From a virus: a stretch of DNA of 22,585 nt. The stretch spans positions 1 to 22,585 of the IMG/VR virus record IMGVR_UViG_3300019884_000014; one strand, given 5' to 3'. Below, piece by piece: positions 3,029 to 14,326 of this stretch. The number at the start of each line of letters is the position of its first letter. The first letter of the stretch is position 1. Both the position numbers and the translations under genes were made by a program. A model generated the notes under the pieces. The model saw only the letters and a list, made by a program, of their open reading frames with translations, ran no database searches and had not been told where the DNA came from.

Positions 3029-3085
3029 TGAAAACCTCCATGATCTCAGCGGCTTATGGCTGCGGTCATTATTAGATAGGACGGC

Positions 3086-3114
3086 TTGACATATAGGAAA
3101 GGATGGCCTATATC
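3086..3114 (+). promoter_or_regulatory. P1: sigma70-type promoter overlaid by inverted-repeat operator
   Basis: TTGACA (3086-3091), a 17-nt spacer, then TATATC (3109-3114). The arms ATATAGG (3091-3097) and CCTATAT (3107-3113) form a perfect 7-bp inverted repeat with 9 nt between, so a bound dimer would cover both promoter boxes. An extra half-site, AGATAGG, lies at 3074-3080. It drives the plus-strand gene at 3217 and lies in the divergent gap before the protease-capsid gene. Confidence 0.85.
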
Positions 3115-3216
3115 TGTTTTGTGAACGACAGGGTTTTCGGCAGCCAGACAAGGCGCTCGTCGAAACAAGCCGGGTGGGCGAAGGAAGGGCAGCCCGGACA
3201 AATCAGGAGCTACCAA

Positions 3217-3801
3217 ATGATCAAGCTTCGTTTCCGCACACTCGATGGCATCCGCAAGACCAAGACTTTCAAAACGGTCGCGGGCGCACGCAAGGCCGCC
3301 CATGACTGGGTCGGCAAGGACGCCGATGTTGGAATCGGCTACGCGGTCTCAACCGATGGCGTTGTCACGGTCTCTGTCGATGGCGCGACGCTCGACGACA
3401 TCTTCGGCGAGCCGAAAGTTGCCGAGAAGAAAGACGAGCCTCGCAAGTTCGTCGCAAAGCGCTCGGGTCCGGACAGCTACGATCTGTATTGCGGCGATCC
3501 AGTTCCAGCGAACAAATTCGGTCGCGTGTTCGAAGCCTACGAAGTTCACGTTGGCGACGAGCGCGATGGATGGGCACTCAGCTTCGAATGGCCAGAGCTT
3601 GGCTACACCGACGATCACTACTCCACACTGAAAGCGGCGCTCGCCTACGCGCGGTGGGCGGTCGAAGGCTACTTCGAATACAGCGCCGAGGAAGCCCGCG
3701 CCGAACAGGAAGCCGAAGGCGCTTGGCTGCGCCATGCCGAACGGCAGACCAACGACGATTTCGCTTTCGAAGAATACGAGCGCTCACGCGGTTTGATTTG
3801 A
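3217..3801 (+). CDS. hypothetical phage protein, 194 aa
   Basis: Function not recognised. The start at 3217 is supported by AGGAG at 3205-3209, seven bases upstream; an earlier in-frame ATG at 3103 lies inside the P1 promoter. The N-terminal 60 residues (MIKLRFRTLDGIRKTKTFKT, AGARKAAHDWVG) look like a small basic beta-alpha domain seen in phage hypotheticals. The C-terminal half is acidic and rich in aromatic residues. The protein ends in a charged helix. The roughly 100-nt leader after P1 contains a weak stem (CCGGGT 3170-3175 with GCCCGG 3192-3197). It is the first gene of the plus-strand block that runs to 6163. Confidence 0.8.
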   Translation: MIKLRFRTLDGIRKTKTFKTVAGARKAAHDWVGKDADVGIGYAVSTDGVVTVSVDGATLDDIFGEPKVAEKKDEPRKFVAKRSGPDSYDLYCGDPVPANKFGRVFEAYEVHVGDERDGWALSFEWPELGYTDDHYSTLKAALAYARWAVEGYFEYSAEEARAEQEAEGAWLRHAERQTNDDFAFEEYERSRGLI

Positions 3802-3822
3802 GGCAACCTGAAAGGAAGCAAA

Positions 3823-4125
3823 ATGAAAATGACAACACTACCCAGCAGCGACCACGACACCATCGGTAAGATCGCGCAGCGCGCGGTGTTCCTGTACGCG
3901 CAACACGACATCTGCGTCGACCGGCTGACCGTTCTGCTTGACGTAACGACCTGCCATTCACAGGGCCAGCCACTTCGGCTCGACGATCTGCTCGGTGCCG
4001 ATGACTTCAACTTCATGCACGACATCGGCGGCATCAATCGCCATCTGGACCGCAAGACCGGGCAACTGCTTGACGGGTTCCGGCCGCGCTTCTGCGCATT
4101 CAGGCCAATTAAATCTTCTATATGA
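3823..4125 (+). CDS. conserved phage hypothetical protein, 100 aa
   Basis: A helical 100-aa protein with no catalytic motif recognised. The patterns IGKIAQRAVFLYAQHDI, VTTCHSQGQPLRLDDLLGAD and FNFMHDIGGINRHLDRKTGQ match the style of a small conserved family found in phages and bacteria, but I cannot name it with certainty. AAAGGA lies seven bases before the ATG. It follows the 3217 gene by 21 nt and ends 4 nt before the P2 promoter, so it is likely cotranscribed from P1. Confidence 0.8.
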   Translation: MKMTTLPSSDHDTIGKIAQRAVFLYAQHDICVDRLTVLLDVTTCHSQGQPLRLDDLLGADDFNFMHDIGGINRHLDRKTGQLLDGFRPRFCAFRPIKSSI

Positions 4126-4129
4126 TCTC

Positions 4130-4158
4130 TTGACATATAGGTCGATAGGCCCTATATT
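4130..4158 (+). promoter_or_regulatory. P2: promoter with inverted-repeat operator
   Basis: TTGACA (4130-4135), 17-nt spacer, TATATT (4153-4158). Perfect arms ATATAGG (4135-4141) and CCTATAT (4151-4157) are spaced 9 nt, as in P1. A shorter nested palindrome ATAGG-C-CCTAT lies at 4145-4155. It drives the 4208 gene. Confidence 0.85.
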
Positions 4159-4167
4159 GAGGATGAA

Positions 4168-4188
4168 GGGTCGCGATGGGCGCGGCCC
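4168..4188 (+). promoter_or_regulatory. 5'-leader hairpin before the 4208 gene
   Basis: GGGTCGCG (4168-4175) pairs with CGCGGCCC (4181-4188), one pair being G-U, with a 5-nt loop. It lies between the P2 start site and the ribosome binding site and has no U-tract, so it is a leader structure rather than a terminator. A role in mRNA stability or translation is inference. Confidence 0.45.
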
Positions 4189-4207
4189 AGTGGAAAAGGA
4201 AGCGAGA

Positions 4208-4621
4208 ATGTTTCTCTCTCAATTCAGCGGCGTGCCCACGGCAGCCGGCAGCAAGTCGGCGCAGTTTGCGGCAGCGTTCACCAAGGCGGTCGCGGCCGGG
4301 CTAGAGGCCGGCAAGGCGGCAGTGCCCCGAGTGATGGTCGTGCAACAAATCGGCGCGGGCAACACGGTCCAGCAGGAATGGCACGAGCCCGAGGGCCTGT
4401 GCGGTTTTGCTTGGGTCAAGGTCACGCCCGGAAATTCGCCCTTCGCCAATTGGCTCAAGCGGCACGACTTCGCCAGCAAGGCTTACGGCGGCGGTGTCGA
4501 CATCTGGATCAGCGACTTCAATCAGAGCGTCACGCGGAAAGAAGCTGCGGCGAGCGCGCTGGCCAAGGTGCTGCAGATGGAGCTTGGCATCCACGCCTAC
4601 GCATCAAGCCGGTTGGATTAA
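4208..4621 (+). CDS. conserved phage hypothetical protein, 137 aa
   Basis: The start at 4208 is chosen because AAGGA (4196-4200) lies seven bases upstream and because longer in-frame starts precede or overlap P2. The C-terminal half carries a pattern familiar from many phage hypotheticals: CGFAWVKVTPGNSPFANWL, KAYGGGVDIWISDFNQS and LGIHAYASSRLD. The known family members have no assigned enzymatic activity that I can state. No membrane segment or signal peptide is seen. It is transcribed from P2 through a hairpin leader and followed by a second hairpin before the next gene. Confidence 0.85.
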   Translation: MFLSQFSGVPTAAGSKSAQFAAAFTKAVAAGLEAGKAAVPRVMVVQQIGAGNTVQQEWHEPEGLCGFAWVKVTPGNSPFANWLKRHDFASKAYGGGVDIWISDFNQSVTRKEAAASALAKVLQMELGIHAYASSRLD

Positions 4622-4631
4622 CCGGCGCAAC

Positions 4632-4654
4632 GGGCGCGGTTTTCGGCCGCGCCC
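4632..4654 (+). promoter_or_regulatory. intergenic stem-loop between the 4208 and 4668 genes
   Basis: GGGCGCGG (4632-4639) pairs perfectly with CCGCGCCC (4647-4654) around a 7-nt loop. There is no U-tract, so it is not a standard terminator; it could slow polymerase or protect an mRNA end. Confidence 0.45.
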
Positions 4655-4667
4655 AGAAACGGAAACG

Positions 4668-4862
4668 ATGGCTAAACGACGAACCAACGAACAACGGCTG
4701 ACTGACGCCCGCATCCAGAACGCGGTCTACGGATTCAGCATTCCGATGCTGTCCATCCCGGCGCTCTACAAGCAAATGGAAGCGGCCGTCGCACTCGGCG
4801 CGACCAACGATGAATTGAAAGCGGTGGTCGCCGCTTTCCCCGGCGTAAGTAGGACGCGTTGA
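4668..4862 (+). CDS. small hypothetical protein, 64 aa
   Basis: MAKRRTNEQRLTDARIQNAV is a basic N-terminus. It is followed by a helical region (IPALYKQMEAAVALGATNDE) and AFPGVSRTR. Function unknown. GGAAA precedes the ATG by about four bases. The stop codon TGA lies inside the TTGACA of promoter P3, an arrangement also seen at P5. It is probably cotranscribed with the 4208 gene from P2. Confidence 0.7.
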   Translation: MAKRRTNEQRLTDARIQNAVYGFSIPMLSIPALYKQMEAAVALGATNDELKAVVAAFPGVSRTR

Positions 4863-4887
4863 CATATAGGAACGGCTGCCCTATGAA
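4859..4887 (+). promoter_or_regulatory. P3: promoter-operator with a gene start inside its -10 box
   Basis: TTGACA (4859-4864), 17-nt spacer, TATGAA (4882-4887). Arms ATATAGG (4864-4870) and CCTATGA (4880-4886) keep the 9-nt spacing with one mismatch. TAGGAC at 4850-4855 matches the extra half-site of P1. The ATG of the next gene (4883) lies within the -10 hexamer, so this promoter would start transcription downstream of that ATG and serve the 5040 gene onward, or act mainly as an operator. Confidence 0.7.
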
Positions 4888-5056
4888 GGAATCCAACGTC
4901 ACAGTCGGCCGGGTTTATCGCGCGGATGGCGAGATCGTCCGCGTCCTATCCAAACATAGCGACCAAGTTTACGCTCGCGTAGTCGCGGACAGGAAACCGA
5001 AATACCGCTATGTGCTGTATTCCAAATTGGAGGAAATAGATGAGCACCGCCCCTGA
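4883..5056 (+). CDS. small hypothetical protein, 57 aa
   Basis: MKESNVTVGRVYRADGEIVR followed by a beta-rich stretch ending in KYRYVLYSKLEEIDEHRP; it looks like a small SH3-like or barrel domain, but no family is recognised. The ATG lies in the -10 box of P3 and the nearest purine-rich sequence (AGGAAC) is about 10 nt upstream, so it is probably translated from mRNA coming from P2. It overlaps the next gene by 17 nt. Confidence 0.65.
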   Translation: MKESNVTVGRVYRADGEIVRVLSKHSDQVYARVVADRKPKYRYVLYSKLEEIDEHRP

Positions 5057-5264
5057 CGGGTTTCACGATCACACCGAACCGACATGGTTCAATCAACTGT
5101 TTCACGCGCACCAGCTTTTGAAAGAAAAGGGCTACGACGAAGTCAGGCGGCACGCGCGCGTGTCCAGCGAGAATCGACACCGCTGCCGCGAATGCTTTTG
5201 CTGCGCCTGCGCTGCGGTGCTTTACGACCCGGTGGAACGCCGCAAGCGCGGCTTGCCGGGATGA
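5040..5264 (+). CDS. small Cys-rich hypothetical protein, 74 aa
   Basis: The ATG at 5040 follows GGAGG by 7 nt. The C-terminal part holds a dense cysteine cluster, CRECFCCACAAVL, preceded by a His-rich N-terminus (GFHDHTEPTWFNQLFHAHQL), consistent with metal binding, which is inference. Its start lies inside the end of the preceding gene in a different frame. It could be the first gene translated from P3 transcripts. Confidence 0.7.
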   Translation: MSTAPDGFHDHTEPTWFNQLFHAHQLLKEKGYDEVRRHARVSSENRHRCRECFCCACAAVLYDPVERRKRGLPG

Positions 5265-5300
5265 TTCAAGGCGACTGATTAAATGAAAGAAAGGGACATT

Positions 5301-5576
5301 ATGCCACTACTCGGTGACGCTCCAATTTCACCTGAACTCCACAAGCTGATGAATGGCGTCGCGCAAGGCTTGGATGCAGTCTTCAACGGTGACGCCAAAG
5401 GCAATGATCGTAAGAACGGCTTTGTCCTGCTGGTGTTTCCGTTCGATAACTTGGCGGACGGTGACGCACGCTGCAATTTCATTTCCAACGGAGCCGACCG
5501 CAGGGACGTGGTGGTGCTGATGAAGGAAATGATCGCCCGCTTCGAAGGTCAGCCGGAGATTAAGGGGAAAGCATGA
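5301..5576 (+). CDS. conserved phage hypothetical protein, 91 aa
   Basis: The start at 5301 is preferred over the in-frame ATG at 5283 because AAGGGA lies seven bases upstream of 5301 and nothing comparable precedes 5283. The segment ARCNFISNGADRRDVVVLMK followed by EMIARFEGQPE is a pattern I associate with a widespread phage hypothetical family of unknown role. The protein is soluble and alpha/beta. Its stop overlaps the next start as ATGA, showing translational coupling. Confidence 0.8.
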   Translation: MPLLGDAPISPELHKLMNGVAQGLDAVFNGDAKGNDRKNGFVLLVFPFDNLADGDARCNFISNGADRRDVVVLMKEMIARFEGQPEIKGKA

Positions 5577-6163
5577 GGCACCACACAATCGCGGCTGAAC
5601 TAGCGCACGAGTTATTCGCGCATGAATGCTTCGCCTTCACGGGCGAGGGGCAACCGCATTCGATGAACTGCCGACGCGCGCAGACGTTGATCGCCGACGC
5701 AATAGAACGCCAGCAAGAATTAGACGATGCGCGATGTCGCGACATACGGGATTTAGTTGTTCAACTCTCCCAAGCCAAAGCGGAGGTGGAGGAAGTCACA
5801 GACAAGTTCCGCGCCTTCGAAGCAATGGCTGTAGGCAGGGCGAAGCGCATTAACGAACTACACGCTCAACTCAAATCTGACCAAGAAGAAAATCGTGTAG
5901 GGGTAGTAGCGGATCGAATGGCAGAGCTTGATATGGCGTCACAAGAACGCATTGAGCAGTTAGAAGCTCAACTCTCCCAAGCCAAGGCAGATGCGGCGAA
6001 CCTACGCGCCGCCGCAGAGATTGGACTTTCCGCGCTCAAGAAAATTGATGCTCGCTGCACTGAAGCCCTCTCCCCCGCTCCCGCCAAGCCCTTCGACCGC
6101 ACACTAAGAGACAAAGAACTCTGGCTCCTTGATGACGAGCAAACAGAAGAGGACCGGGATTGA
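5573..6163 (+). CDS. coiled-coil hypothetical protein, 196 aa
   Basis: It starts with an ATGA overlap and a good AAGGGG ribosome binding site. Residues about 40-155 are a long heptad-rich coiled coil. The phrase QLSQAKA occurs twice, and the matching DNA (CAACTCTCCCAAGCCAA) is repeated near 5762 and 5970, so part of the coil arose by duplication. The N-terminus (HHTIAAELAHELFAHECFAF) is His-rich. No enzymatic motif is seen. It is the last gene of the plus-strand block and converges on the minus-strand lysis-like operon. No clear terminator follows. Confidence 0.75.
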   Translation: MRHHTIAAELAHELFAHECFAFTGEGQPHSMNCRRAQTLIADAIERQQELDDARCRDIRDLVVQLSQAKAEVEEVTDKFRAFEAMAVGRAKRINELHAQLKSDQEENRVGVVADRMAELDMASQERIEQLEAQLSQAKADAANLRAAAEIGLSALKKIDARCTEALSPAPAKPFDRTLRDKELWLLDDEQTEEDRD

Positions 6164-6182
6164 CAGCGACGCAATCCGATAA

Positions 6183-6284
6183 TTAGCCTTGTCCGGGCGT
6201 GTGTTTTGTCATCTTACGGATGACATAAATCGCCAGCGCACCAACAACAATACCCCCGACCACGATGTAGATAATTATTTCCAT
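6183..6284 (-). CDS. 33-aa single-span membrane peptide
   Basis: The frame encodes MEIIIYIVVGGIVVGALAIY, then VIRKMTKHTPGQG: one transmembrane helix of about 20 residues and a short basic tail, which predicts N-out/C-in topology. AAAGG lies five to six bases before the ATG, directly after the peptidase stop codon. It is the last gene of the endolysin, sulfatase, peptidase operon, so a holin-like or lysis-accessory role is possible but unproven. Confidence 0.7.
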   Translation of the reverse strand: MEIIIYIVVGGIVVGALAIYVIRKMTKHTPGQG

Positions 6285-6293
6285 CGTGCCTTT

Positions 6294-7004
6294 TCACGCC
6301 GCTTCCTTGACCTCAACGGCGACAGCGGCTTCGCCTTGTTCTTCGATCAACTGTTCCAGCGTTTCAAACGTAAGCCAAGCCTTGCCGTTCTGCCCCCATC
6401 CACTGCCCCATGAATTGATCATGCGTGCCGCGCCCGTGGTGCCGTCAGGATTTTTACGCTTGCGATTGATGCCAATAATTGTCCACGCATGGCCGCCAAC
6501 ATACGAGCCCCGGGGTTCGATATAGCCATCCCAATCGGGCGTGAACATATCCATATACCAATCAGTGCCCATGACGACTGGCCCTTTTGTCAAAACATGA
6601 GCAACAACAGTGTCCAAATCGAAGCCCCAACGGTATTCGGAACAAAGCCCATTGGCCTTTAGCCATTTGAACATGGCGCGGACAGAGGTCCCGTCATAAT
6701 CGGTCCCCGGCCATTCGTCGATTTCTTGCACCCGCTCGTAAACCTTCGTGCGTTCCGCAGCCGTGAGAAAGCCAGCATTGACGACTGGGCGCGTGCTCAA
6801 CCATTTATCGGTTGAATAAATGACGCACTCAGACGTAGCGCCTTGGTCAAGCGCATCGCCAAGTGAAAGCCAATACTTTGATGTGACCGCAGGAGGTACA
6901 GTTTCCTTGCGCAACAAATACTTGTTGTCGCGTTCATCTGGCGCGTAGCGTCTGCCAAGGCCAGATAGATTTTGTTCCGGGTTCAATGGCGCTAGTGCTG
7001 TCAT
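6294..7004 (-). CDS. papain-like (C1 family) cysteine peptidase
   Basis: A 236-aa protein with the papain catalytic layout: oxyanion Gln54 and nucleophile Cys60 in DQGATSECVIYS, His172 in GGHAWTIIGI, and Asn197 in INSWGSGWGQNGKAWL (the NSWG signature). No signal peptide or propeptide is visible, so it acts in the cytoplasm or is released by lysis. The start at 7004 is chosen for GGAG about 8 nt upstream; ATG 7028 and TTG 7034 are alternatives that overlap the sulfatase end. It lies third in an operon after endolysin and sulfatase, which suggests a role at lysis or in host-protein processing. Confidence 0.88.
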   Translation of the reverse strand: MTALAPLNPEQNLSGLGRRYAPDERDNKYLLRKETVPPAVTSKYWLSLGDALDQGATSECVIYSTDKWLSTRPVVNAGFLTAAERTKVYERVQEIDEWPGTDYDGTSVRAMFKWLKANGLCSEYRWGFDLDTVVAHVLTKGPVVMGTDWYMDMFTPDWDGYIEPRGSYVGGHAWTIIGINRKRKNPDGTTGAARMINSWGSGWGQNGKAWLTFETLEQLIEEQGEAAVAVEVKEAA

Positions 7005-7020
7005 TGTTGGCTCCACGGGT

Positions 7021-8382
7021 TCACGCATTCTCAATCGGTTCGACTTCGGCGCGGCCCGATGCCGCCAGCAGCGCGGTTATACGTTCCTCGTAACCGGCGC
7101 GCGCCCCTTCGGTGTCGTATGCCGGGCCGAGGTTATTCATCTCGTAGGGATCGCTTTTCAGATCGTAGGCTTCGATCTCGCCATGATAGTTGGTGTAGAC
7201 GTAATCCCGCATCTGGATCGAGCGCCATTCGACGCCGGGCGATATTCCCGCCATCGAACCACCGACAGGGGGCTCGCTGTCGCCAGTGACGCGCATGCCG
7301 TGCGCCAGCATGACATTGCGCCATGCTGCGGGCGTCTCGCCTTTCAGCAGCGGCACCAGCGAACGCCCATCCATAACAGCGGGAGCTTCAAGGCCAGCCA
7401 ACTCCAAAATCGTCGGACCAATGTCCAAGCCGCCGACCAGACGGTCGTCATATCCGGGCTTCACGCCGGGACCGATCCAGTACAAGACGTTCCGGCAGGA
7501 TTCCTGATATGGCCGACCCTTGTCCGGCATCCGGTGCGCATTCCAAAGATAGCCGTTATCGGCATAGATGATGAAATGCGTTTTACCCATGATGCCGAGC
7601 TTGCCGACAATGCTGTGCATCTGCCGGATCATGTCGTCGATGCTGCGCGACTTCTCCCGCGCCTTGCGCCAGTCGGCGCGCAAAGTTACGACTTCCTCCG
7701 GAGTCAGCCTGACCGCATTCTGCACATACGCAGGCTTGTTTGTTACGTTGAGTGGATTGAAATTCGGCTTCGCCGCTGGCGCAAACGGTTCCGCCGCATA
7801 GAGGCCAGCGTGCGGCGCATCGGGAATGAATGGTTCGTGCGGCGCAGTCGGCGTCAGCACGATAGCAAAAGGTTTCCCCGCAGCCACGCAGCGCTTGATG
7901 GTGGTCTCGGCGCGATCCGCCAGCCACTTTGCTTGATAGTGCCCCGTGACCAGAACTTCGACGCCGGTTCTGTTCACCTCGAACTGGGTCACGTTGCCGG
8001 TGTAGACGATGTCCCACCGATTCCACATATCGCCCATCGGCGCGCCGGTATAGACATTAAGCGACTTGCCGTGCAGCGCGGTTTGATGCGTGCCCGCCGC
8101 CCGCAGCACTTGTGGCCAACTGCCGACATCCAAATTGTTGTCGAGAAAATTCTGGTATCCATTCGGGTTGGAAAATATGTCGTTGTTGTGCGGCAACCGC
8201 CCGGTAAAAAGCGAAACCCGCGACGGCGTGCAGATCGGGCAGGTATAGATCGCGCGGGTGAATTTGCGGGCGCGCACCGTCAGCTTGTGCAGGAACGGCA
8301 TCCACGCGCGTCCTTTGGAATCCCTCCCATCAATGGCCGCGCGTTCCATGTCGTCTGGTACGATGACGATGAAGTTATCCAT
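7021..8382 (-). CDS. type I sulfatase (alkaline phosphatase superfamily)
   Basis: A 453-aa sulfatase. Asp10-Asp11 is the N-terminal metal site. CTPSR (51-55) is the C-x-P-S-R motif whose Cys is converted to formylglycine by a host maturation enzyme. APHEP (181-185), DNG (275-277) and H283/K288 in NAHRMPDKGRPYQES complete the active site. It would hydrolyse sulfate esters, perhaps on sulfated glycans; the substrate is unknown. No signal peptide is present, so it would be cytoplasmic until lysis. Its ATG overlaps the endolysin stop by 8 nt, so the two are coupled. Sulfatases are uncommon in phage genomes. Confidence 0.92.
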   Translation of the reverse strand: MDNFIVIVPDDMERAAIDGRDSKGRAWMPFLHKLTVRARKFTRAIYTCPICTPSRVSLFTGRLPHNNDIFSNPNGYQNFLDNNLDVGSWPQVLRAAGTHQTALHGKSLNVYTGAPMGDMWNRWDIVYTGNVTQFEVNRTGVEVLVTGHYQAKWLADRAETTIKRCVAAGKPFAIVLTPTAPHEPFIPDAPHAGLYAAEPFAPAAKPNFNPLNVTNKPAYVQNAVRLTPEEVVTLRADWRKAREKSRSIDDMIRQMHSIVGKLGIMGKTHFIIYADNGYLWNAHRMPDKGRPYQESCRNVLYWIGPGVKPGYDDRLVGGLDIGPTILELAGLEAPAVMDGRSLVPLLKGETPAAWRNVMLAHGMRVTGDSEPPVGGSMAGISPGVEWRSIQMRDYVYTNYHGEIEAYDLKSDPYEMNNLGPAYDTEGARAGYEERITALLAASGRAEVEPIENA

Positions 8383-9190
8383 TTTTGTTTCGCCTGACCG
8401 TTTTGCGCCGCAGGTTCGGTGCCTTCGTTGACGAAGCCGCTAGGTTTGCGAGGAACTGATCGACCGCCTCCCCTACGTTGGGGTGAGGGTATGATTTCGC
8501 GAGAGCATCAAAGAATACAGCCACGCTGGCGAGCACCGCGCTGGCCTCGATTTCGTCGGGCACTGGTACGGGCACTGGTACGGGCACTGGTACGGGCGGC
8601 GCTTCTGGCGCGATGGCCTCTGCGATGTCGTCCCGCACTTTGGAAAGTTGCCGAAGAACTGTCATCGTGCCCATCTGCTTGTCGTCGGCATTCGGGTCGA
8701 ACACGCCGTCGGCGACGTATTTTCCTTTTTGCTCGTGATTGCTGCCGGCCCAAACATACGGGCTGTTCACGCCCTTATTGACGTAGCCAAAACCGTTGAA
8801 GCGCTCTGCCTCGAAGCCCATCCGCTCAATCGACCACTCATCGATTTCGTGCAGGTCTTTAAGTCTCAGAGCGTCGACGGCAGATTCTTCCCATGACGAA
8901 AATGGGCCTCGCCCGGCCGGCACCAAAGAGGTCTTTTTTCCAGTCCCGATAATGCGCTCTCCATTGTGGAGCACGCCAGTAAAGGAGCAAGCCGACTCGC
9001 GCATGTGCAGCGCCCCGATAAAGAACCAAGGCACGCCAGTTTGCGTTTGCACGCTGCGATAACGTTTCTCCCCGGCAATAATCTTCTGAGCAAAGGATGC
9101 GGCATCGGCGGCGTCTTGCCCGCCCTTGATGACAAGCGAGCGCCACATATTGCCGTAGCCGTTGCGCATGTCCTCGAAGGTGAGGGCCAT
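8375..9190 (-). CDS. endolysin, lysozyme-like muramidase
   Basis: A 271-aa protein matching a known phage lysozyme-like endolysin pattern: GVPWFFIGALHMRESACSF with candidate catalytic Glu65, LHNGERI (75-81), VPAGRGPF (90-97), WEESAVDAL, then FNGFGY (131-136) and SPYVWAGSN (143-151). It would cleave peptidoglycan at lysis. Residues 198-211 are a (Pro-Val) linker encoded by a DNA tandem repeat, followed by a 60-residue helical tail ending in a basic stretch (RRKTVRRNKNG) that could bind the wall or membrane. No signal peptide or SAR helix is seen, so a holin would be needed. The start at 9190 has AAGGAAG upstream; 9301 lies beyond P4 and is rejected. Confidence 0.88.
   Translation of the reverse strand: MALTFEDMRNGYGNMWRSLVIKGGQDAADAASFAQKIIAGEKRYRSVQTQTGVPWFFIGALHMRESACSFTGVLHNGERIIGTGKKTSLVPAGRGPFSSWEESAVDALRLKDLHEIDEWSIERMGFEAERFNGFGYVNKGVNSPYVWAGSNHEQKGKYVADGVFDPNADDKQMGTMTVLRQLSKVRDDIAEAIAPEAPPVPVPVPVPVPVPDEIEASAVLASVAVFFDALAKSYPHPNVGEAVDQFLANLAASSTKAPNLRRKTVRRNKNG
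8558..8593. repeat. 12-bp tandem repeat, 3 copies
   Basis: Three perfect copies of GGGCACTGGTAC lie in the endolysin gene and encode the Pro-Val linker between the catalytic domain and the C-terminal tail. The repeat keeps the frame (12 nt = 4 codons), so copy-number change would alter linker length without breaking the gene. Confidence 0.9.
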
Positions 9191-9242
9191 TTGGGCGCTT
9201 CCTTTTTTCCACCGTGAGACCACGAGGGCCAGATAGGGCCTA

Positions 9243-9271
9243 TTGACATATAGGACGAAATGACATATATT
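9243..9271 (+). promoter_or_regulatory. P4: promoter-operator in the divergent endolysin/HD gap
   Basis: TTGACA (9243-9248), 17-nt spacer, TATATT (9266-9271). Arms ATATAGG (9248-9254) and CATATAT (9264-9270) have one mismatch and the standard 9-nt spacing. The extra AGATAGG half-site lies at 9231-9237, exactly 17 bp upstream of the left arm as in P1. It drives the HD hydrolase gene and lies 53 nt from the endolysin start on the other strand. Confidence 0.85.
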
Positions 9272-9294
9272 CAGATTGAAAGGAGGCACGGTTA

Positions 9295-9807
9295 ATGTCA
9301 CTGATAAGAAAAGCCCTTCGGTTCGCCACCAAGGCGCATGCCGGGGTCTTCCGTAAATGGACTGACGGCGAGCCCTATATCGCGCATCCGGCGCGCGTGG
9401 CCGCGATGCTGGCCGAGCTTGACTTCCCCGACGAGGTCGTCGCCGCCGCGTTCCTGCATGACGTGGTCGAAGATACGGCCTATTCCAACGCCGATCTGAC
9501 CGCCGCCTTCGGCCCCACGGTCGCGGCGCTGGTCGCCGAGGTCACCAATCCAAGCGACATCCCGAAAGTGCCCGGCAACCGCCCGGTGCGGAAGGCCGCC
9601 AACAAGGCGCATCTGGCGCGTGCCAGCTATGCCGGAGCCTCGATCAAGCTGGCGGACATGATCGACAACGCCACCGACATCGCCACGCGCTCCCCGAAAT
9701 TCGCCAAGCGCTACCTGCCGGAGGTCGCCGACAACCTGTCGGTCCTTGGCCACGGCCACCCGGCCCTGCTGGCCAGACTGGCCAACATCCTCAATATGAC
9801 CTCTTGA
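9295..9807 (+). CDS. HD-domain (p)ppGpp hydrolase, MESH1/SpoT-like
   Basis: A 170-aa stand-alone HD domain. ATKAHAG (11-17), the GEPYIAHPARVA segment with His31, FLHDVVEDT (His55-Asp56, Glu59-Asp60) and KLADMIDN (118-125) follow the order of the hydrolase domain of RelA/SpoT and MESH1 proteins. It would remove the 3'-diphosphate from ppGpp using Mn2+. The synthetase and TGS domains are absent, as in small alarmone hydrolases. A strong AGGAGG (9281-9286) precedes the ATG by eight bases, downstream of P4. A likely job is to blunt the host stringent response during infection (inference). Its TGA stop lies inside the TTGACA of P5. Confidence 0.88.
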   Translation: MSLIRKALRFATKAHAGVFRKWTDGEPYIAHPARVAAMLAELDFPDEVVAAAFLHDVVEDTAYSNADLTAAFGPTVAALVAEVTNPSDIPKVPGNRPVRKAANKAHLARASYAGASIKLADMIDNATDIATRSPKFAKRYLPEVADNLSVLGHGHPALLARLANILNMTS

Positions 9808-9832
9808 CATACCGGACATAACGTCCTATATC
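9804..9832 (+). promoter_or_regulatory. P5: promoter-operator before the LPD29-like gene
   Basis: TTGACA (9804-9809), 17-nt spacer, TATATC (9827-9832). The right arm CCTATAT (9825-9831) is intact; the left arm is ATACCGG (9809-9815), with two changes from the consensus. The 9-nt spacing is kept. The -35 box contains the stop codon of the HD gene. Confidence 0.8.
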
Positions 9833-9865
9833 AGGGGTGCCCCTCCCGAGAGAAAGGAACAAAAA

Positions 9866-10429
9866 GTGTCTGACTATCTGACTTGCGCTGAGACCGCCAA
9901 GCTGGTGCGCACTGCGCTCAAGAAGGCTTTCCCCGGCGTCAAATTCTCGGTGCGCTCCAGCGTTTACGCGGGCGGCGCATCGATCAATGTCCGCTGGACC
10001 GATGGTCCGGCGCGTAAAGTGGTCGAGGCGGTGGCCAAGCGCTACGCAGGCGGCGGCTTCGACGGCATGATCGACATGAAATACAACGTCGACTCGTGGC
10101 TGCTTCCGGACGGCTCGGTCTGTGCCGCGTCCTCGCCCGGCACTTCCGGCTCGATGGGCGTCTATGAGCCCTACAATCACGCCGCCCCGTCGCCGAACGC
10201 CAAGCTGGTTAACTTCGGTGCCGACTTCATCTTCTGCGAAAAAGAACGCTCGCTCGAAACCTACTCCGCCGCCGTCGCCAAGGTGTGCGCCGAATACGGC
10301 GTGCCGGTGCCGGAAGTAAAGATGTCAGGCCATTACCCCTACGTCTCGCACATTGCCGTGCCGAACGCTGACACCGATCTGTCGACGCTCGTGCATCGCG
10401 AATTGGAAAAGGAAAACGCATGCCAGTGA
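9866..10429 (+). CDS. LPD29-domain-like phage protein, 187 aa
   Basis: The start is GTG at 9866, with AAAGGA seven bases upstream. The N-terminal half reads ETAKLVRTALKKAFPGVKFS, then VRSSVYAGGASINVRWTDGP and VAKRYAGGGFDGMID, matching my recollection of the LPD29 (large polyvalent protein-associated) domain found in phage and plasmid proteins. Its biochemical role is not established. The C-terminal part is unassigned. It is first in a tightly packed operon in which successive genes overlap or abut up to 11837. Confidence 0.8.
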   Translation: MSDYLTCAETAKLVRTALKKAFPGVKFSVRSSVYAGGASINVRWTDGPARKVVEAVAKRYAGGGFDGMIDMKYNVDSWLLPDGSVCAASSPGTSGSMGVYEPYNHAAPSPNAKLVNFGADFIFCEKERSLETYSAAVAKVCAEYGVPVPEVKMSGHYPYVSHIAVPNADTDLSTLVHRELEKENACQ

Positions 10430-10614
10430 AGCCGCGACACGCAGCGCGCGTGGAATTGCCGACCTTTGCCGAGATCGCGGCTCAGCGCCTCGCGGATGCT
10501 GGCCCGCGCGACAAGACCATCACGATCAAGGTCGCGATCAACACCGCCCGCATGATGGTCGAGGCGGAAAACGCCCGGCACAACCGCGAACTGTCACAGG
10601 AGAATACCGCATGA
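10420..10614 (+). CDS. small hypothetical protein, 64 aa
   Basis: It overlaps the LPD29-like gene by 10 nt and has AAGGA in the coupled ribosome binding site. The sequence MPVKPRHAARVELPTFAEIA then a helical segment with TITIKVAINTARMMVEAENA is soluble and helical. No family is recognised. Its stop overlaps the next gene as ATGA. Confidence 0.7.
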   Translation: MPVKPRHAARVELPTFAEIAAQRLADAGPRDKTITIKVAINTARMMVEAENARHNRELSQENTA

Positions 10615-10895
10615 CGCAGGCGGCTCTCGAATTCGGAAAAAATCTCGCGGCCAAAGCTTTTGCCAAACGCAAAGGCCACGGCGGCGCGGAGGGTGTTTGT
10701 TACCTTCAAATGACAGAGGCAAAGCTTGCTGCCTTTATCGCAATCGCTTTCGAAGCAGGCGCGAAGTCGCAGGGCGCTCTTGTTGCCGAGTTGCTAACGA
10801 TCATTGATGGCGACGACGTAGATGTATTTCGGTTTGCCCGCATTCTGCGGGAAGCCCGCGCCGCAGCAGGCGCAACCAGCGAAGGGAGCAAATAG
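10611..10895 (+). CDS. hypothetical protein, 94 aa
   Basis: The start at 10611 overlaps the previous stop as ATGA, and ACAGGAG lies eight to nine bases upstream. A longer in-frame reading from 10353 would overlap two genes and is rejected. The protein is mainly helical (GVCYLQMTEAKLAAFIAIAF, EAGAKSQGALVAELLTIIDG, FARILREARAA) without a recognised motif. It is translationally coupled within the P5 operon. Confidence 0.7.
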   Translation: MTQAALEFGKNLAAKAFAKRKGHGGAEGVCYLQMTEAKLAAFIAIAFEAGAKSQGALVAELLTIIDGDDVDVFRFARILREARAAAGATSEGSK

Positions 10896-11114
10896 ATGGG
10901 CTACGCACTCTGCACGAGCCCCTGCATCGGCTGCGGCCAAATCTTCTCCTACAACCCGGTGCGGGTGCCGAGCATCACCATTCACGGCGACCGCAAACCG
11001 ATCTGCCGGTCCTGCGTCGAGCGGGTCAATCCGCAACGCATCGCCAACGGGCTCGATCCTATTGTGCCGCTGCCCGATGCCTATGAAGCCTGCCACGAGG
11101 AGGAATTGGAATGA
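10896..11114 (+). CDS. small zinc-ribbon-like protein, 72 aa
   Basis: The ATG directly follows the previous stop codon, with GGGAG eight bases upstream. Two cysteine pairs, CIGCG (10-14) and CRSC near residue 38, frame a beta-rich loop (IFSYNPVRVPSITIHGDRKP). This is the arrangement of a zinc ribbon, so zinc binding is likely; the target is unknown. The C-terminus is acidic (EACHEEELE). Confidence 0.75.
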   Translation: MGYALCTSPCIGCGQIFSYNPVRVPSITIHGDRKPICRSCVERVNPQRIANGLDPIVPLPDAYEACHEEELE

Positions 11115-11305
11115 AATGTCGCTTCCTCATTTCGCGCGTCACCAAATACTTTCCGCGCATTCGGGAAAAGACGCGCGTCGTGTTTATCGATGCACCGACA
11201 TTTGCGGAAGCTCGCGATCAAATCGTCCGAGACTATCCGGAATGGTCAATCAATATGGCGTGGCCAGTCTGGCCGGAAACAGAGAAGGGAATAAATAATG
11301 ACTGA
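11111..11305 (+). CDS. small hypothetical protein, 64 aa
   Basis: It has an ATGA overlap with the previous gene and a strong GAGGAGG upstream. MKCRFLISRVTKYFPRIREK is followed by RVVFIDAPTFAEARDQIVRD and YPEWSINMAWPVWPE, a small alpha/beta protein with a Trp-rich end. No family is recognised. It overlaps the next gene by 8 nt. Confidence 0.7.
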   Translation: MKCRFLISRVTKYFPRIREKTRVVFIDAPTFAEARDQIVRDYPEWSINMAWPVWPETEKGINND

Positions 11306-11837
11306 CAAACCACTCGACGACTACGGCCTGATGCTGCAGCGCGTGCAACGCGTCGGCACCGACTACATCGAACTGCACATAGTGCGGCGCGAGAAAGAGC
11401 GCCCGGATGTGCCGCTCGGCTGCTCCGGCGACGGCGAAATCTTCGCCGGTTACGGCTGCCCCAAACATCTACTTGGGCTCGCGCTCGACGGACTCGGCAT
11501 GCGCGGCTTTGTCAGCGACAGCACGAGCAACGTGTCGTTCATTGGTCACGGCGTCGAATTTTACGATGTCTATTCCAGCCACGAGCGCAAGCTGCGGCGC
11601 ATGCTCAAGGCAGTCAAGCGTGTCAATGACCGCATCGCCAAGGACGAAGCGCGGGAGCCCGGCGACCAATTGGTCGCCTTCGCCAAGGCGCTGAAACTGA
11701 GCTTTGTGGTCGAGCGCATCGGGCCGGCGCGCCGCGATCCTGACTGGCGCTGGATGACGATTCAGGAAGGGCGCAACCGCTACCGTACCCTGATCGACCA
11801 AGCGGTGGCCGAAGCCATCGCGCGCAAGACCGCGTGA
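11298..11837 (+). CDS. hypothetical protein, 179 aa
   Basis: GAAGGGA lies about 9 nt before the ATG. The N-terminal half is beta-rich with two cysteines in CSGDGEIFAGYGCPKHLLGL; the C-terminal half is helical and basic (ERKLRRMLKAVKRVNDRIAK, DPDWRWMTIQEGRNRYRTLI). No known domain is recognised. The basic helices would suit nucleic-acid binding, but that is only inference. It is the last gene of the operon that starts at P5. Confidence 0.75.
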   Translation: MTDKPLDDYGLMLQRVQRVGTDYIELHIVRREKERPDVPLGCSGDGEIFAGYGCPKHLLGLALDGLGMRGFVSDSTSNVSFIGHGVEFYDVYSSHERKLRRMLKAVKRVNDRIAKDEAREPGDQLVAFAKALKLSFVVERIGPARRDPDWRWMTIQEGRNRYRTLIDQAVAEAIARKTA

Positions 11838-11862
11838 TGAATGGTCAGTCAGGATTAGGGCC

Positions 11863-11891
11863 TTGATTTTATAGACAAAAAGCCCTATGTA
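11863..11891 (+). promoter_or_regulatory. P6: diverged promoter-operator before the HTH gene
   Basis: TTGATT (11863-11868), 17-nt spacer, TATGTA (11886-11891). The right arm CCTATGT (11884-11890) resembles the family, but the left side keeps only ATAG, shifted by one base. TAGGG at 11856-11860 may be an upstream half-site. The predicted start site (about 11897-11899) is only 3-5 nt before the ATG at 11902, implying a nearly leaderless mRNA. Confidence 0.55.
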
Positions 11892-11901
11892 AGCGGCCAC
11901 C

Positions 11902-12168
11902 ATGAACGCAAAACAATATCGCGAAGCTCTTGCCAAGCTCGACCTGTCGCAGGCCACGGCTGGCGATCTCTTCGGCGTCGGCGCGCGGACCTCGCGGCGC
12001 TGGGCTCTGAATGAGGCGCGTATCCCGCCACTGGTCGGGATGTTGCTGGAACTGATGCTGTCCAAAAAGCTCAAGGTCGAACTGACCATCCCGGTCAGCC
12101 CGGACCGTTCGCAGGCAGAGCGCCGCGTCTGGAGCTTTCAGGCGAAGCAAAGCGTTCAAGCGCTGTAG
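11902..12168 (+). CDS. small helix-turn-helix DNA-binding protein, 88 aa
   Basis: Residues about 5-48 resemble a small HTH fold: YREALAKLDLSQATAGDLFG, then VGARTSRRWALNEARIPPLV, where ARTSRRWALNEARIP is the typical recognition-helix and turn pattern of Cro/XRE-like proteins. The remainder (KKLKVELTIPVS and a basic tail) may help dimerise. No clear Shine-Dalgarno sequence is present and the predicted promoter P6 leaves almost no leader. It is the only obvious DNA-binding regulator in the window and the best candidate to bind the ATATAGG/CCTATAT operators, including its own; that link is inference. Confidence 0.75.
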   Translation: MNAKQYREALAKLDLSQATAGDLFGVGARTSRRWALNEARIPPLVGMLLELMLSKKLKVELTIPVSPDRSQAERRVWSFQAKQSVQAL

Positions 12169-12194
12169 CGCATTTGCACGACAGGGCCTATTCT

Positions 12195-12220
12195 AGTGCG
12201 GCGGCCGTTGCTGCCGCACT
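12195..12220 (+). promoter_or_regulatory. strong leader hairpin before the 12232 gene
   Basis: AGTGCGGCGGC (12195-12205) pairs with GCTGCCGCACT (12210-12220) over 11 positions, one being G-U, with a CGTT tetraloop. No U-tract follows; instead GGAAT and the ATG of the next gene lie 11 nt away. It could affect ribosome access or 5'-end stability. Confidence 0.6.
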
Positions 12221-12231
12221 GGAATAGATCA

Positions 12232-12466: not shown

Positions 12467-14326
12467 TCATTTGCTCTTGCGCGCGTGCAGGTTCGGCTTG
12501 TCACCCATGTTGTCGTAGACTTCCCAGTAATCCATGTCCGCCCGGTGCTTGTCGAACGATGTTTCGTTGGTGACCGAGCCGAGCGAATATTCTGGCAGCA
12601 CGAAACGGCCATTGCCGTTGGTCTCATTGCCTCTGACAAATCGGCCAAGCGCGCGCTCAGCGGCGGTCGCTGGCGACGCGTACATATAGTGGCCGGAGAT
12701 TTTGTAGCCTGCGGCCTTGGCAAGCGCGATCCGCATGTCCGTCGTCGACTCGCTTTTTAACGTCGCATCAACGATCATGTTGAGACGGTTGTCGCGCGCG
12801 TAGGTTTCCATCGCCGTGCCGACGTAGCTTGATTCCTCGTGCAGCAGCGCGGCGTTCCAGCCTTGGTATTCCGGCAGCGCTGATTTCACGTCGTCGCTGT
12901 TGATGTAGAGCGCCTTTTCCTTGGCTTGCGCGAGCGTGCCGCCCTTGCGCGCGTCCATGAACCAACCCTTGCCTGATCCGCCACGCCCGCCGAGAATATA
13001 CAGCGTCGGTTGCTCGCCCGGCTCCGGTGTTGCCGCCGCGATCTGCTCGGGCGTCATCAGCTTCTCGACGATTTGCCGATGCACGGCCGCGCGCTCCGGA
13101 GCCCATTTCCCGCTCGGCAGTTTGTAGGTCGCGTCCGTCGGCACATCTTCCGCCAGCTTTCTGCGCGCTTCGGCGGCCTGCTCCTTGGAGCCCGGGACTT
13201 TCTGGTAAAGTTCCTCGACCGTGACCCTTTCAATTTTCAGCAGCGACGACGCCGATGTCGGGTCTTTGGCGGCGCGGCTATGATCCTGCTGTGCGGCGAC
13301 GCCTTCATCGTAATCCTTGACGTAGCGGCCGTCTTTTTTGCTGTAGCTCTGCGGCTTCGACGATACGTCCACCATGAAGACGACATCGGGCTCGCCGTTG
13401 TTGAATTCCTTGAACGTCTCCTTATCCCAGCCGTCAGGCTTTTGCGTTTCGTCCCACTTCAGCCGGGCGACGGCGACAAATCCGCTGTCGGCATAGATGT
13501 ACGGCAACTGCGTGTCGAACGCGTCGAGTCGCCGCCCGCCCTGTTCGCTGGCGAGTTCCAGCGCAACGTCGGCAACGCCATTGGCGGTCGAGCTTGGATG
13601 TTTGAACAGCGACACGATCTCGTCGCCCTTGAGCGCGAAACCGCTGCGGCCGTCCGGAGCCATGAACAGCCGCATCTTCTCGTAGCTGTTTGCATCGTAG
13701 ACATGGACGGCGGCACCGTATTTGCTCTCCGCCTTGGCGCGTGTGATCGCGTTTTCGAAACTCTTCGCGCCGGCCTTGTCGCCGAACTCGTAAAAAGTTT
13801 GCGGTGTATTGCCCGCCGCACGCATCTTCTCGGCGGCAGCCGCAGTCGGCCGATGGATGGCGACTACGCCCCGGCTTCTTTGATCATCTCCAGCGCTTTC
13901 GCGGTCGAAAGCTCGGGGTGATTGCTTAGCAGGTTTGCTAGGACCCTCTGCTGGCCCGGCGTCAGGTTTTCCGGTATCCGCCGATCCACCGCCTGCGAAT
14001 TGTCCGCCTTCGGATGACCCTGCTGGTTCTCTTGGATGGTCGGCTTCATTCCATACCTTCTCTTCCCGAACCCTTCTATATAGGCCACTTTGGCCATTTT
14101 GCAACAGCGCAAGCGTGCGTTGCTTAACACGCCGCCAGTGCCGCTTGCGCAGCGTCTCCTGCGTCTTGGCCTGATGCGCTGCGCGATGGCGCGCGCGGAT
14201 CGGAGCCATGATCTTTTCGTCGATGGGAAAGTCGACCGGATTGATAATCGGCCCATGCAGTTCGCTGTCCTGCTTGTTGCCGTCTTCATCGAGATAGAAA
14301 AATTCCTCGGCTGGTTTGTCAGGCAT
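12467..14326 (-). CDS. effector-like fusion: GNAT-like domain plus zeta-toxin kinase
   Basis: A 619-aa protein. Residues 1-90 are charged and helical. WNEADHPREPAGSSEGGQFA (92-111) is a linker typical of phage head-morphogenesis tails. Residues about 170-330 form a domain with YGAAVHVYDANSYEKMRLF and RRLDAFDTQLPYIYADSGFV, resembling GNAT-like domains of phage cargo proteins. Residues about 435-565 are a zeta-toxin-like kinase: Walker A GGRGGSGKG with Lys453, INSDDVKSALPEYQGW with Asp478/479, the HEESSYVG segment, and IVDATLKS. Zeta toxins phosphorylate UDP-sugars. The start at 14326 overlaps the upstream gene by 8 nt. A separate gene is embedded in another frame at 13864-14049. It may be injected or used against the host or rival phages (inference). 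Confidence 0.85.
   Translation of the reverse strand: MPDKPAEEFFYLDEDGNKQDSELHGPIINPVDFPIDEKIMAPIRARHRAAHQAKTQETLRKRHWRRVKQRTLALLQNGQSGLYRRVREEKVWNEADHPREPAGSSEGGQFAGGGSADTGKPDAGPAEGPSKPAKQSPRAFDRESAGDDQRSRGVVAIHRPTAAAAEKMRAAGNTPQTFYEFGDKAGAKSFENAITRAKAESKYGAAVHVYDANSYEKMRLFMAPDGRSGFALKGDEIVSLFKHPSSTANGVADVALELASEQGGRRLDAFDTQLPYIYADSGFVAVARLKWDETQKPDGWDKETFKEFNNGEPDVVFMVDVSSKPQSYSKKDGRYVKDYDEGVAAQQDHSRAAKDPTSASSLLKIERVTVEELYQKVPGSKEQAAEARRKLAEDVPTDATYKLPSGKWAPERAAVHRQIVEKLMTPEQIAAATPEPGEQPTLYILGGRGGSGKGWFMDARKGGTLAQAKEKALYINSDDVKSALPEYQGWNAALLHEESSYVGTAMETYARDNRLNMIVDATLKSESTTDMRIALAKAAGYKISGHYMYASPATAAERALGRFVRGNETNGNGRFVLPEYSLGSVTNETSFDKHRADMDYWEVYDNMGDKPNLHARKSK
13864..14049 (-). CDS. 61-aa ORF embedded out of frame in the zeta-toxin gene
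   Basis: The frame is +1 relative to the surrounding gene. It starts MKPTIQENQQ and ends with a strikingly protein-like helical segment, NLTPGQQRVLANLLSNHPEL then STAKALEMIKEAGA. AGAAGG lies six bases before the ATG, and a promoter-like sequence lies about 30 nt upstream. In phage cargo proteins a similar 'LTPGQ...HPELS..KALEM...AG' tail can follow the DHPR linker, so this may be a relic of an ancestral frame; alternatively it is a real small protein, even an antitoxin to the host gene's zeta domain. Both views are inference. Confidence 0.5.
   Translation of the reverse strand: MKPTIQENQQGHPKADNSQAVDRRIPENLTPGQQRVLANLLSNHPELSTAKALEMIKEAGA
14077..14104 (-). promoter_or_regulatory. internal minus-strand promoter-like sequence
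   Basis: On the minus strand, TTGCAA (14104-14099), a 16-nt spacer and TATATA (14082-14077). CCTATAT, the right arm of the operator family, overlaps the -10 box, and a poor left arm AAAATGG lies 9 nt before it. It sits inside the 12467-14326 gene, just upstream of the embedded ORF. Confidence 0.4.

Follow-up and report, generated by a model that had tools for sequence, protein, structure and literature searches.

Dispersed phage promoters within abutting 17-bp operators and a candidate small helix-turn-helix repressor

Five promoter elements in the window

The stretch of DNA analysed here (the window) is a virus record of 22,585 bases, IMG/VR record IMGVR_UViG_3300019884_000014. Five promoter elements are dispersed along its plus strand in front of small genes, including an HD hydrolase gene and an LPD29 gene, and a sixth, related promoter at 11863 precedes the gene of a small helix-turn-helix (HTH) protein. 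We propose that this protein is a repressor of the Aca/Cro type that would shut off a dispersed early regulon through two operators, O1 and O2, at each promoter. We put the probability of this explanation as a whole at roughly three in four. The five elements are:

3077..3110, + strand: tandem operator with promoter TTGAC(3086)-N17-CTATAT; O1 3077-3093 TAGGAC-GGCTT-GACATA; O2 3094-3110 TAGGAA-AGGAT-GGCCTA; predicted +1 G at 3121
4121..4154, + strand: tandem operator with the promoter at 4130, upstream of the gene at 4208-4621; O1 4121-4137 TATGAT-CTCTT-GACATA; O2 4138-4154 TAGGTC-GATAG-GCCCTA; predicted +1 at 4165
4850..4883, + strand: degenerate tandem operator with TATGAA in place of the -10 box, recognised by motif match and matrix score
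9234..9267, + strand: tandem operator, promoter of the HD hydrolase gene; O1 9234-9250 TAGGGC-CTATT-GACATA; O2 9251-9267 TAGGAC-GAAAT-GACATA; predicted +1 at 9278
9795..9828, + strand: tandem operator, promoter of the LPD29 gene; O1 9795-9811 TATGAC-CTCTT-GACATA; O2 9812-9828 CCGGAC-ATAAC-GTCCTA; predicted +1 at 9839

The initial annotation had described an inverted repeat, ATATAGG-(9)-CCTATAT, laid over the promoter at five sites. This repeat is present. A scan of the window for TTGACATATAGG-N9-CCTATAT, allowing up to three mismatches, returned matches at 3086, 4130, 4859, 9243 and 9804, all on the plus strand and with 0, 0, 2, 1 and 2 mismatches, respectively. The repeat is perfect at 3086 and 4130, while the right arm is changed at 4859 and 9243 and the left arm at 9804. 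The spacing is indeed beyond chance, as 100 dinucleotide-preserving shuffles of the window yielded zero matches at three mismatches. Moreover, an independent repeat search of the window recovered the same five sites as one 35-nt family, with starts (3077, 4121, 4850, 9234 and 9795) that coincide exactly with the start of the upstream operator O1.

Parts of the earlier description need correction. The promoter-operators had been called identical, but the 9-nt centre and some of the arm bases vary among sites. Furthermore, six sites had been listed together. Five of them follow the pattern, with 4859 as a weak member, whereas the site at 11863, without a left arm, falls into a different class that is itself conserved. 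Site 4859 had the lowest matrix score (24, versus 51-61 for the other window sites), its -10 box (TATGAA) is poor, and its predicted +1 (about 4894) lies downstream of the only sensible ATG (4883). This site may have decayed.

Two abutting operators around each promoter

A weight matrix was made from the sites of related phages, which are referred to below by our G and L labels. The matrix recovered the known sites, and its reversed version gave nothing above score 8 on both strands of 1.95 Mb. Conservation covers TTGAC (1-5), the left arm TATAGG (7-12), a middle part GGCC-N5-GGCC, CCTAtaT (22-28) and T-G (35-36), the last at the place where a sigma-70 promoter is expected to have its -1 and +1. 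The letters of the two boxes and their spacer agree with the rhizobial promoter consensus CTTGAC-N17-CTATAT, as given in PMC2873474. As part of our favoured explanation, each element is probably a strong host sigma-70 promoter of the alphaproteobacterial type, with T at -1 and G at +1.

Recognition by a phage single-subunit RNA polymerase, or a hairpin promoter like that of N4, is the least probable of the alternatives we considered. TATAGG and the TGACATATAG letters superficially resemble T7/SP6 promoters and the arms could fold into a hairpin, but the conserved TG sits at -1/+1 of a sigma-70 promoter and the -35/-10 spacing is 17. A T7-like promoter, as suggested by the TATAGG letters, was rejected on this promoter geometry. 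The polymerase family PF00940 was not found in 11 records, a weak result because the positive control also gave no match.

A second conserved block, TAyGwCC, lies upstream of the -35 box at -8 to -2, and reads TAGGCC or TAGGGC in the relatives that were fetched later. We considered the upstream TAyGACC box as an activator site or UP element, and rejected both because TAGGCC/TAGGGC in relatives is the left half of a second operator. For example, an element in L202 reads TAGGCC-CCCTT-GCCCTA, followed without a gap by TAGGCC-ATTAC-GCCCTA. A scan for dyad axes over 81 sites gave a complementarity of 0.90 at position 17.0 and 0.63 at position 0.0, with 0.51 for the next best axis. Read from these patterns, the element is a pair of abutting putative operators of 17 bp with equal geometry, TAnGnC-N5-GnCnTA, in which O1 spans -8 to 8 and O2 spans 9 to 25. 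The initial annotation had described a single inverted repeat, but there are two operators side by side. The -35 box lies inside the right half of O1 and the -10 box inside the right half of O2, so that the operator period equals the promoter spacer. A TTTCGTGAT-like string recurs 10-20 nt upstream of O1 in L237, G010, G019 and G022.

IMG/VR was then scanned for TAGGNC-N5-GNCCTA occurring twice, either abutting or separated by 1-8 nt. Abutting pairs were found in 23 stretches, versus 9 for gaps of 1-8 nt combined (5 of which had gap 1). L249 alone has six abutting tandem elements. In five of the 23 abutting-tandem loci (L254, L260, L263, L266 and L270), the TTG is out of register with that of the window group. 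As a separate observation, L275 (1258-1391) and L278 (8799-8837) contain arrays of the palindrome TAGGAC-N5-GACCTA with a period of about 21-24 bp and no obvious promoter.

Could the symmetry be incidental, the sites being copies of one strong promoter cassette spread over the phage genome, with no regulator at all? The operator arms do overlap the -35 and -10 letters. However, the left arm at positions 7-12 lies outside both boxes and is nevertheless 90-98% conserved, the two dyad axes are exactly 17 bp apart, and abutting tandems are enriched over other spacings. In addition, the letters of O2 pair 13/21 vary symmetrically between phages (52 of 81 complementary, 36 expected, p < 0.0005). Covariation of the arms within single phages was not significant, and the 13/21 signal is found only between phages. 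We consider this explanation very improbable.

The exact motif with gaps of 7-11 was found in 31 stretches of viral contigs, with gap 9 in most. In contrast, the same gaps in 84,980 genomes (257 Gb) gave 38 stretches that mainly represent a different motif of Clostridia with gap 7, and the gap-9 form was nearly absent. The gap-7 motif, TTGACATATAGG-N7-CCTATAT, was seen in about 20 Clostridia genomes (e.g. L036, L038 and L054) and in low-GC viral contigs including L004, L027 and L029.

Non-redundant sites number 4-10 in each close relative, and almost all of them share one strand. Scans of whole records gave 10 sites in G002, 10-11 in G019, 9-10 in G014, 7-8 in G026 and 5-6 in several fragments, while the reversed-pattern control on the relatives' whole records gave zero. 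With genes called by a home-made codon model, a gene starts on the same strand at -25 to 200 nt from the predicted +1 at 78 of the 81 non-redundant sites, typically at 13-47 nt, and none of the 81 lies inside a called gene. Among isolates, Bradyrhizobium phage ppBeUSDA76-2 (OP596614) carries TAGGGC-CACTT-GCCCTA directly followed by TAGGGC-CAATG-AGACTA, about 300 bp upstream of its HTH gene and with one small gene between. A megablast of the window against named phages gave no match, and the HD hydrolase used as bait yielded no relatives. An integrase is present in the records of G002, G007, G034, L202, L218 and L220 and was not found in G019, G022 and G026; judged by this gene, a temperate lifestyle varies across the site-bearing phages.

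The sites might also be bound by a chromosomal regulator of the host, the phage having copied a host operator and linked its genes to host physiology. The promoters do fit the host sigma-70 consensus cited above, and the HTH protein is a candidate regulator proposed from sequence. However, we scanned 397 genomes from a single candidate-host order, to which one Rhizobiales-type genome belongs, and the operator pattern matched 3 times, compared with 11 matches of the reversed control. With counts at or below background, the pattern does not mark a host regulon in these genomes. The near absence of the gap-9 form from 257 Gb of genomes and the variation of operator bases by phage, along with a residue of that phage's HTH protein (see below), also argue against a host regulator, which we regard as improbable. 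In five chromosomes from the host order, HTH genes lacked an adjoining operator. In the bacterial genome G087, contig 12 has two gap-9 TAGGGC sites 1.7 kb apart at about 867.8-869.5 kb (L241, L242), with a different HTH gene between them; this region is probably a prophage.

A candidate regulator and its own promoter

11863..11890, + strand: HTH gene promoter TTGAT-N17-CTATGT; O2 is its only operator and is degenerate; near-leaderless, the ATG lying about 4 nt after the predicted +1
11902..12168, + strand: small HTH protein of 88 amino acids, candidate repressor, with a lambda-repressor-like fold and residues 27-35 as recognition helix

The left arm is missing from the 11863 site (TTGATTTTATAGACAAAAAGCCCTATGT). 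Promoters of this class, approximately TTGnn-N6-GACAnAAyGsCCTAnnT and located 7-19 nt upstream of the ATG of the HTH gene, were found in the window and in nine relatives (G001, G002, G004, G005, G013, G014, G019, G022 and L196). They retain the right half and the centre of O2, with a degenerate left half and without O1. By this pattern, 11863 is the promoter of the putative regulator itself and lies outside the target set. Directly 3' of the HTH gene, at 12190-12226, is a strong hairpin (TTCTAGTGCGGC...GCCGCACTGGAA), which lacks a T run but may serve as a terminator.

The AlphaFold model of the HTH protein has four helices, with a predicted local distance difference test score of about 90 over residues 1-53 and disorder beyond about residue 53-60. 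A Foldseek search with this model returned HigA2, Aca2, Aca1, Aca10, MqsA and P22 c2 at E-values of 0.02 or worse. The three Aca proteins were among the top matches (E 0.05-0.1), and the closest chains superposed with a root-mean-square deviation of 1.3-1.6 Å. A sequence profile against PDB had Aca2 as its nearest, weak match (E = 0.0045), with 7xi5 (Aca10) at 0.014 and Aca1 at 0.68. In PHROGs, most members of the HTH family are labelled transcriptional regulators. Within the explanation that we favour, the protein would act like an Aca or Cro protein. We have not classed it with the Aca proteins, since there is no known anti-CRISPR gene here and its homology to a named Aca family is weak.

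The protein and the operators are linked in both directions. When loci were fetched by the HTH protein alone, 11 of the 32 new loci carried a total of 23 sites (one mismatch), versus zero sites in 446 kb of loci from terminase (TerL) relatives. When loci were fetched by the tandem DNA pattern alone, an HTH protein of the same family was encoded in 16 of 23, versus 0/46 and 0/33 in the controls. About 14 of 20 are independent, because two of the 23 contigs had been met before and L250 and L269 are near-copies.

Moreover, the protein and the operators change together. In the AlphaFold model, residue 27 is the first residue of the recognition helix. In 8 of 11 phages with Gly at this position, the fifth half-site base is C, whereas all 12 phages with Asp, Asn or another residue have G or A there (Fisher p = 3.4e-4, 23 phages). 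G005 has Asp27 and exclusively TAGGGC sites, yet it is nested in the Gly clade. An independent set with Asp or Asn (L250, L261, L264, L268, L273 and L274) has G or A and never C, with T only where the -35 box fixes the letter.

The initial annotation had proposed one dimeric regulator for several small plus-strand operons, including the HD hydrolase and LPD29 genes. The arrays in relatives, the reciprocal linkage and the residue-27 covariation support this idea. The last two, together with the variant operator at its own gene, also support the HTH protein of 11902, which had been named as a candidate. This type of protein is probably the regulator of the five-promoter set, and probably switches the genes off.

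A different phage protein might regulate the sites instead, for example the 64-amino-acid family (4668-4862) or the HTH_3 protein of G002, G019 and G026. All 13 site-bearing phages, and no other record compared, have the 64-amino-acid family. However, of the 23 loci with tandem operators, only 3 contained its gene, versus 16 with the HTH gene, and PF01381 is absent from several site-bearing phages. Furthermore, neither the 64-amino-acid gene nor the HTH_3 gene starts with a variant operator in every phage. Regulation by such a protein seems unlikely to us.

We infer protein binding, the dimeric state, repression and the transcription starts from these patterns. The HTH protein would bind O1 and O2, most likely as dimers, with one dimer on O1 over the -35 box and another on O2 over the -10 box, and would exclude the host RNA polymerase. 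An early burst of many small genes would be followed by their joint shut-off when the repressor accumulates, as with Cro or Aca proteins. The HTH gene would be repressed last, because its promoter has a weaker -35 box, no O1 and a half-degenerate O2. At the level of sequence, this scheme has support in four respects: the operators are tandem, they are placed before genes, they are linked to the HTH gene, and one of their bases covaries with residue 27.

Activation, or a dual action from O1 upstream of the -35 box, is also rather unlikely. O1 lies at about -43 to -27, where activators can bind, and the regulator's own promoter is without O1. However, O2 spans the spacer to the -10 box, the spacer has the optimal 17 bp, the -35 and -10 boxes are near consensus, and small HTH proteins with an inverted repeat in the core promoter, such as the Aca families, repress (PMC9410906).

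Several results weigh against repression by the HTH protein. The O2 centre pair 15/19 is coupled in all phages as G..T or A..C, opposite to Watson-Crick symmetry (19 complementary, 31 expected), and this coupling is not accounted for by a simple symmetric dimer. O1 is degenerate in G003, G005 and G022. The Fisher test ignores phylogeny, and only about two switches of residue 27 can be recognised as independent; three Gly27 phages (G000, G019 and L202) have mixed bases at the tracked position. At the stringency used, 21 of the 32 HTH-only loci had no site. G024 encodes an HTH relative yet lacks a site, and a scan for palindromic promoters of its own found none. The HTH gene was not found in contigs G003 and G010, which are fragments.

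Target genes and known systems

The genes behind the elements, and the 64-amino-acid gene, are:

3217..3801, + strand: target gene, 194 amino acids, no Pfam match; family in several site-bearing phages
3823..4125, + strand: gene of a target operon, DUF6874
4208..4621, + strand: target gene, 137 amino acids, phrog_22149; in 12/13 site-bearing phages and 0 of the other records compared
4668..4862, + strand: 64-amino-acid gene
9295..9807, + strand: target gene, HD_4 (SpoT/Mesh1-like) phosphohydrolase
9866..10429, + strand: target gene with LPD29 domain

The HD hydrolase gene is downstream of a site in 11 phages. Most target genes had no Pfam match, the named ones being HD_4, LPD29, DUF6874 and DUF2958, and an anti-defence role is therefore hypothetical. 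Elsewhere in the window, the minus strand encodes a sulfatase (7021-8382; PF00884, E 2.4e-20) amid phage structural genes, and a 625-amino-acid protein with a C-terminal zeta-toxin domain (12467-14344; PF06414, E 1.2e-24).

The motif string was not found in the literature searched, nor was a paper describing the element. Tentatively, and with rather less confidence than in the regulator itself, we suggest that repressors of a widespread phage family not described before, with a code that can be read (residue 27 versus half-site base 5), may control dispersed early regulons of small genes in alphaproteobacterial phages through abutting 17-bp operators with a period equal to the promoter spacer. 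Many of the genes may serve counter-defence, with the SpoT/Mesh1-like HD hydrolase as one candidate, and the operator could therefore be used to find new anti-defence genes, as in archaeal viruses. If true, natural Gly/Asp switches at one residue that track one symmetric base offer a test bed for co-change of repressor and operator. The element would also provide a promoter signature for finding early genes under joint control in alphaproteobacterial phages, where hardly any accessory gene is annotated.

The operators of lambda and P22 are pseudo-palindromes of 17-18 bp, bound by dimers of the lambda-repressor fold and arranged in tandem over promoters. Those of lambda are spaced by 6-7 bp and grouped at two loci. 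The elements described here share the 17-bp dyad geometry in tandem, and dimers may bind them, but unlike in lambda the pairs are exactly abutting and repeated around the genome.

Stoperators of Cluster A mycobacteriophages are many dispersed sites for one repressor, with phage-specific specificity (PMC9283540). Here too the sites are dispersed and specificity appears to differ between phages. However, stoperators are asymmetric and also act on elongation, whereas the present sites are symmetric, paired and at promoters. In SPbeta, the master repressor MrpR acts on the SPBRE element at about ten dispersed promoters, and the repeat was seen first and the repressor identified later (PMC10516654). 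Many sites per genome (4-10 per close relative) are likewise found here, presumably under a single repressor. MrpR is recombinase-like and SPBRE is a single 15-bp motif, in contrast to an 88-amino-acid HTH protein and tandem 17-bp sites.

Aca1, Aca2 and Aca10 are small phage HTH repressors with one or more inverted repeats in the core promoter, sometimes including a second similar repeat (PMC9410906, PMC8434428). The HTH protein has a similar predicted lambda-repressor-like fold and the inverted repeats O1 and O2 within the -35/-10 region (axes 0 and 17), and the variant operator at the HTH gene itself in ten phages may reflect autoregulation. Aca proteins act at the promoter of an acr-aca operon, whereas up to 10 dispersed promoters and no identified acr gene are involved here, and the C-terminal dimerisation domain of Aca2 is not seen in the HTH model, which is disordered after about residue 60. 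In SIRV2 and other archaeal rudiviruses, a conserved regulatory sequence marks the strong promoters of many single small early anti-defence genes and is associated with Aca8 (PMC11065993). In both systems one motif stands before many small genes and also at the gene of a small HTH protein, the regulator in SIRV2 and the candidate regulator here. They differ in that SIRV2 has an archaeal TATA/BRE promoter, a winged-HTH Aca8 and an anti-defence regulon, whereas here a sigma-70 promoter lies in two abutting 17-bp operators before genes known from their sequence, for which anti-defence is hypothetical. By analogy, the closest parallels would be SIRV2/Aca8 in logic, the Aca promoters in mechanism and SPbeta MrpR/SPBRE in the history of discovery.

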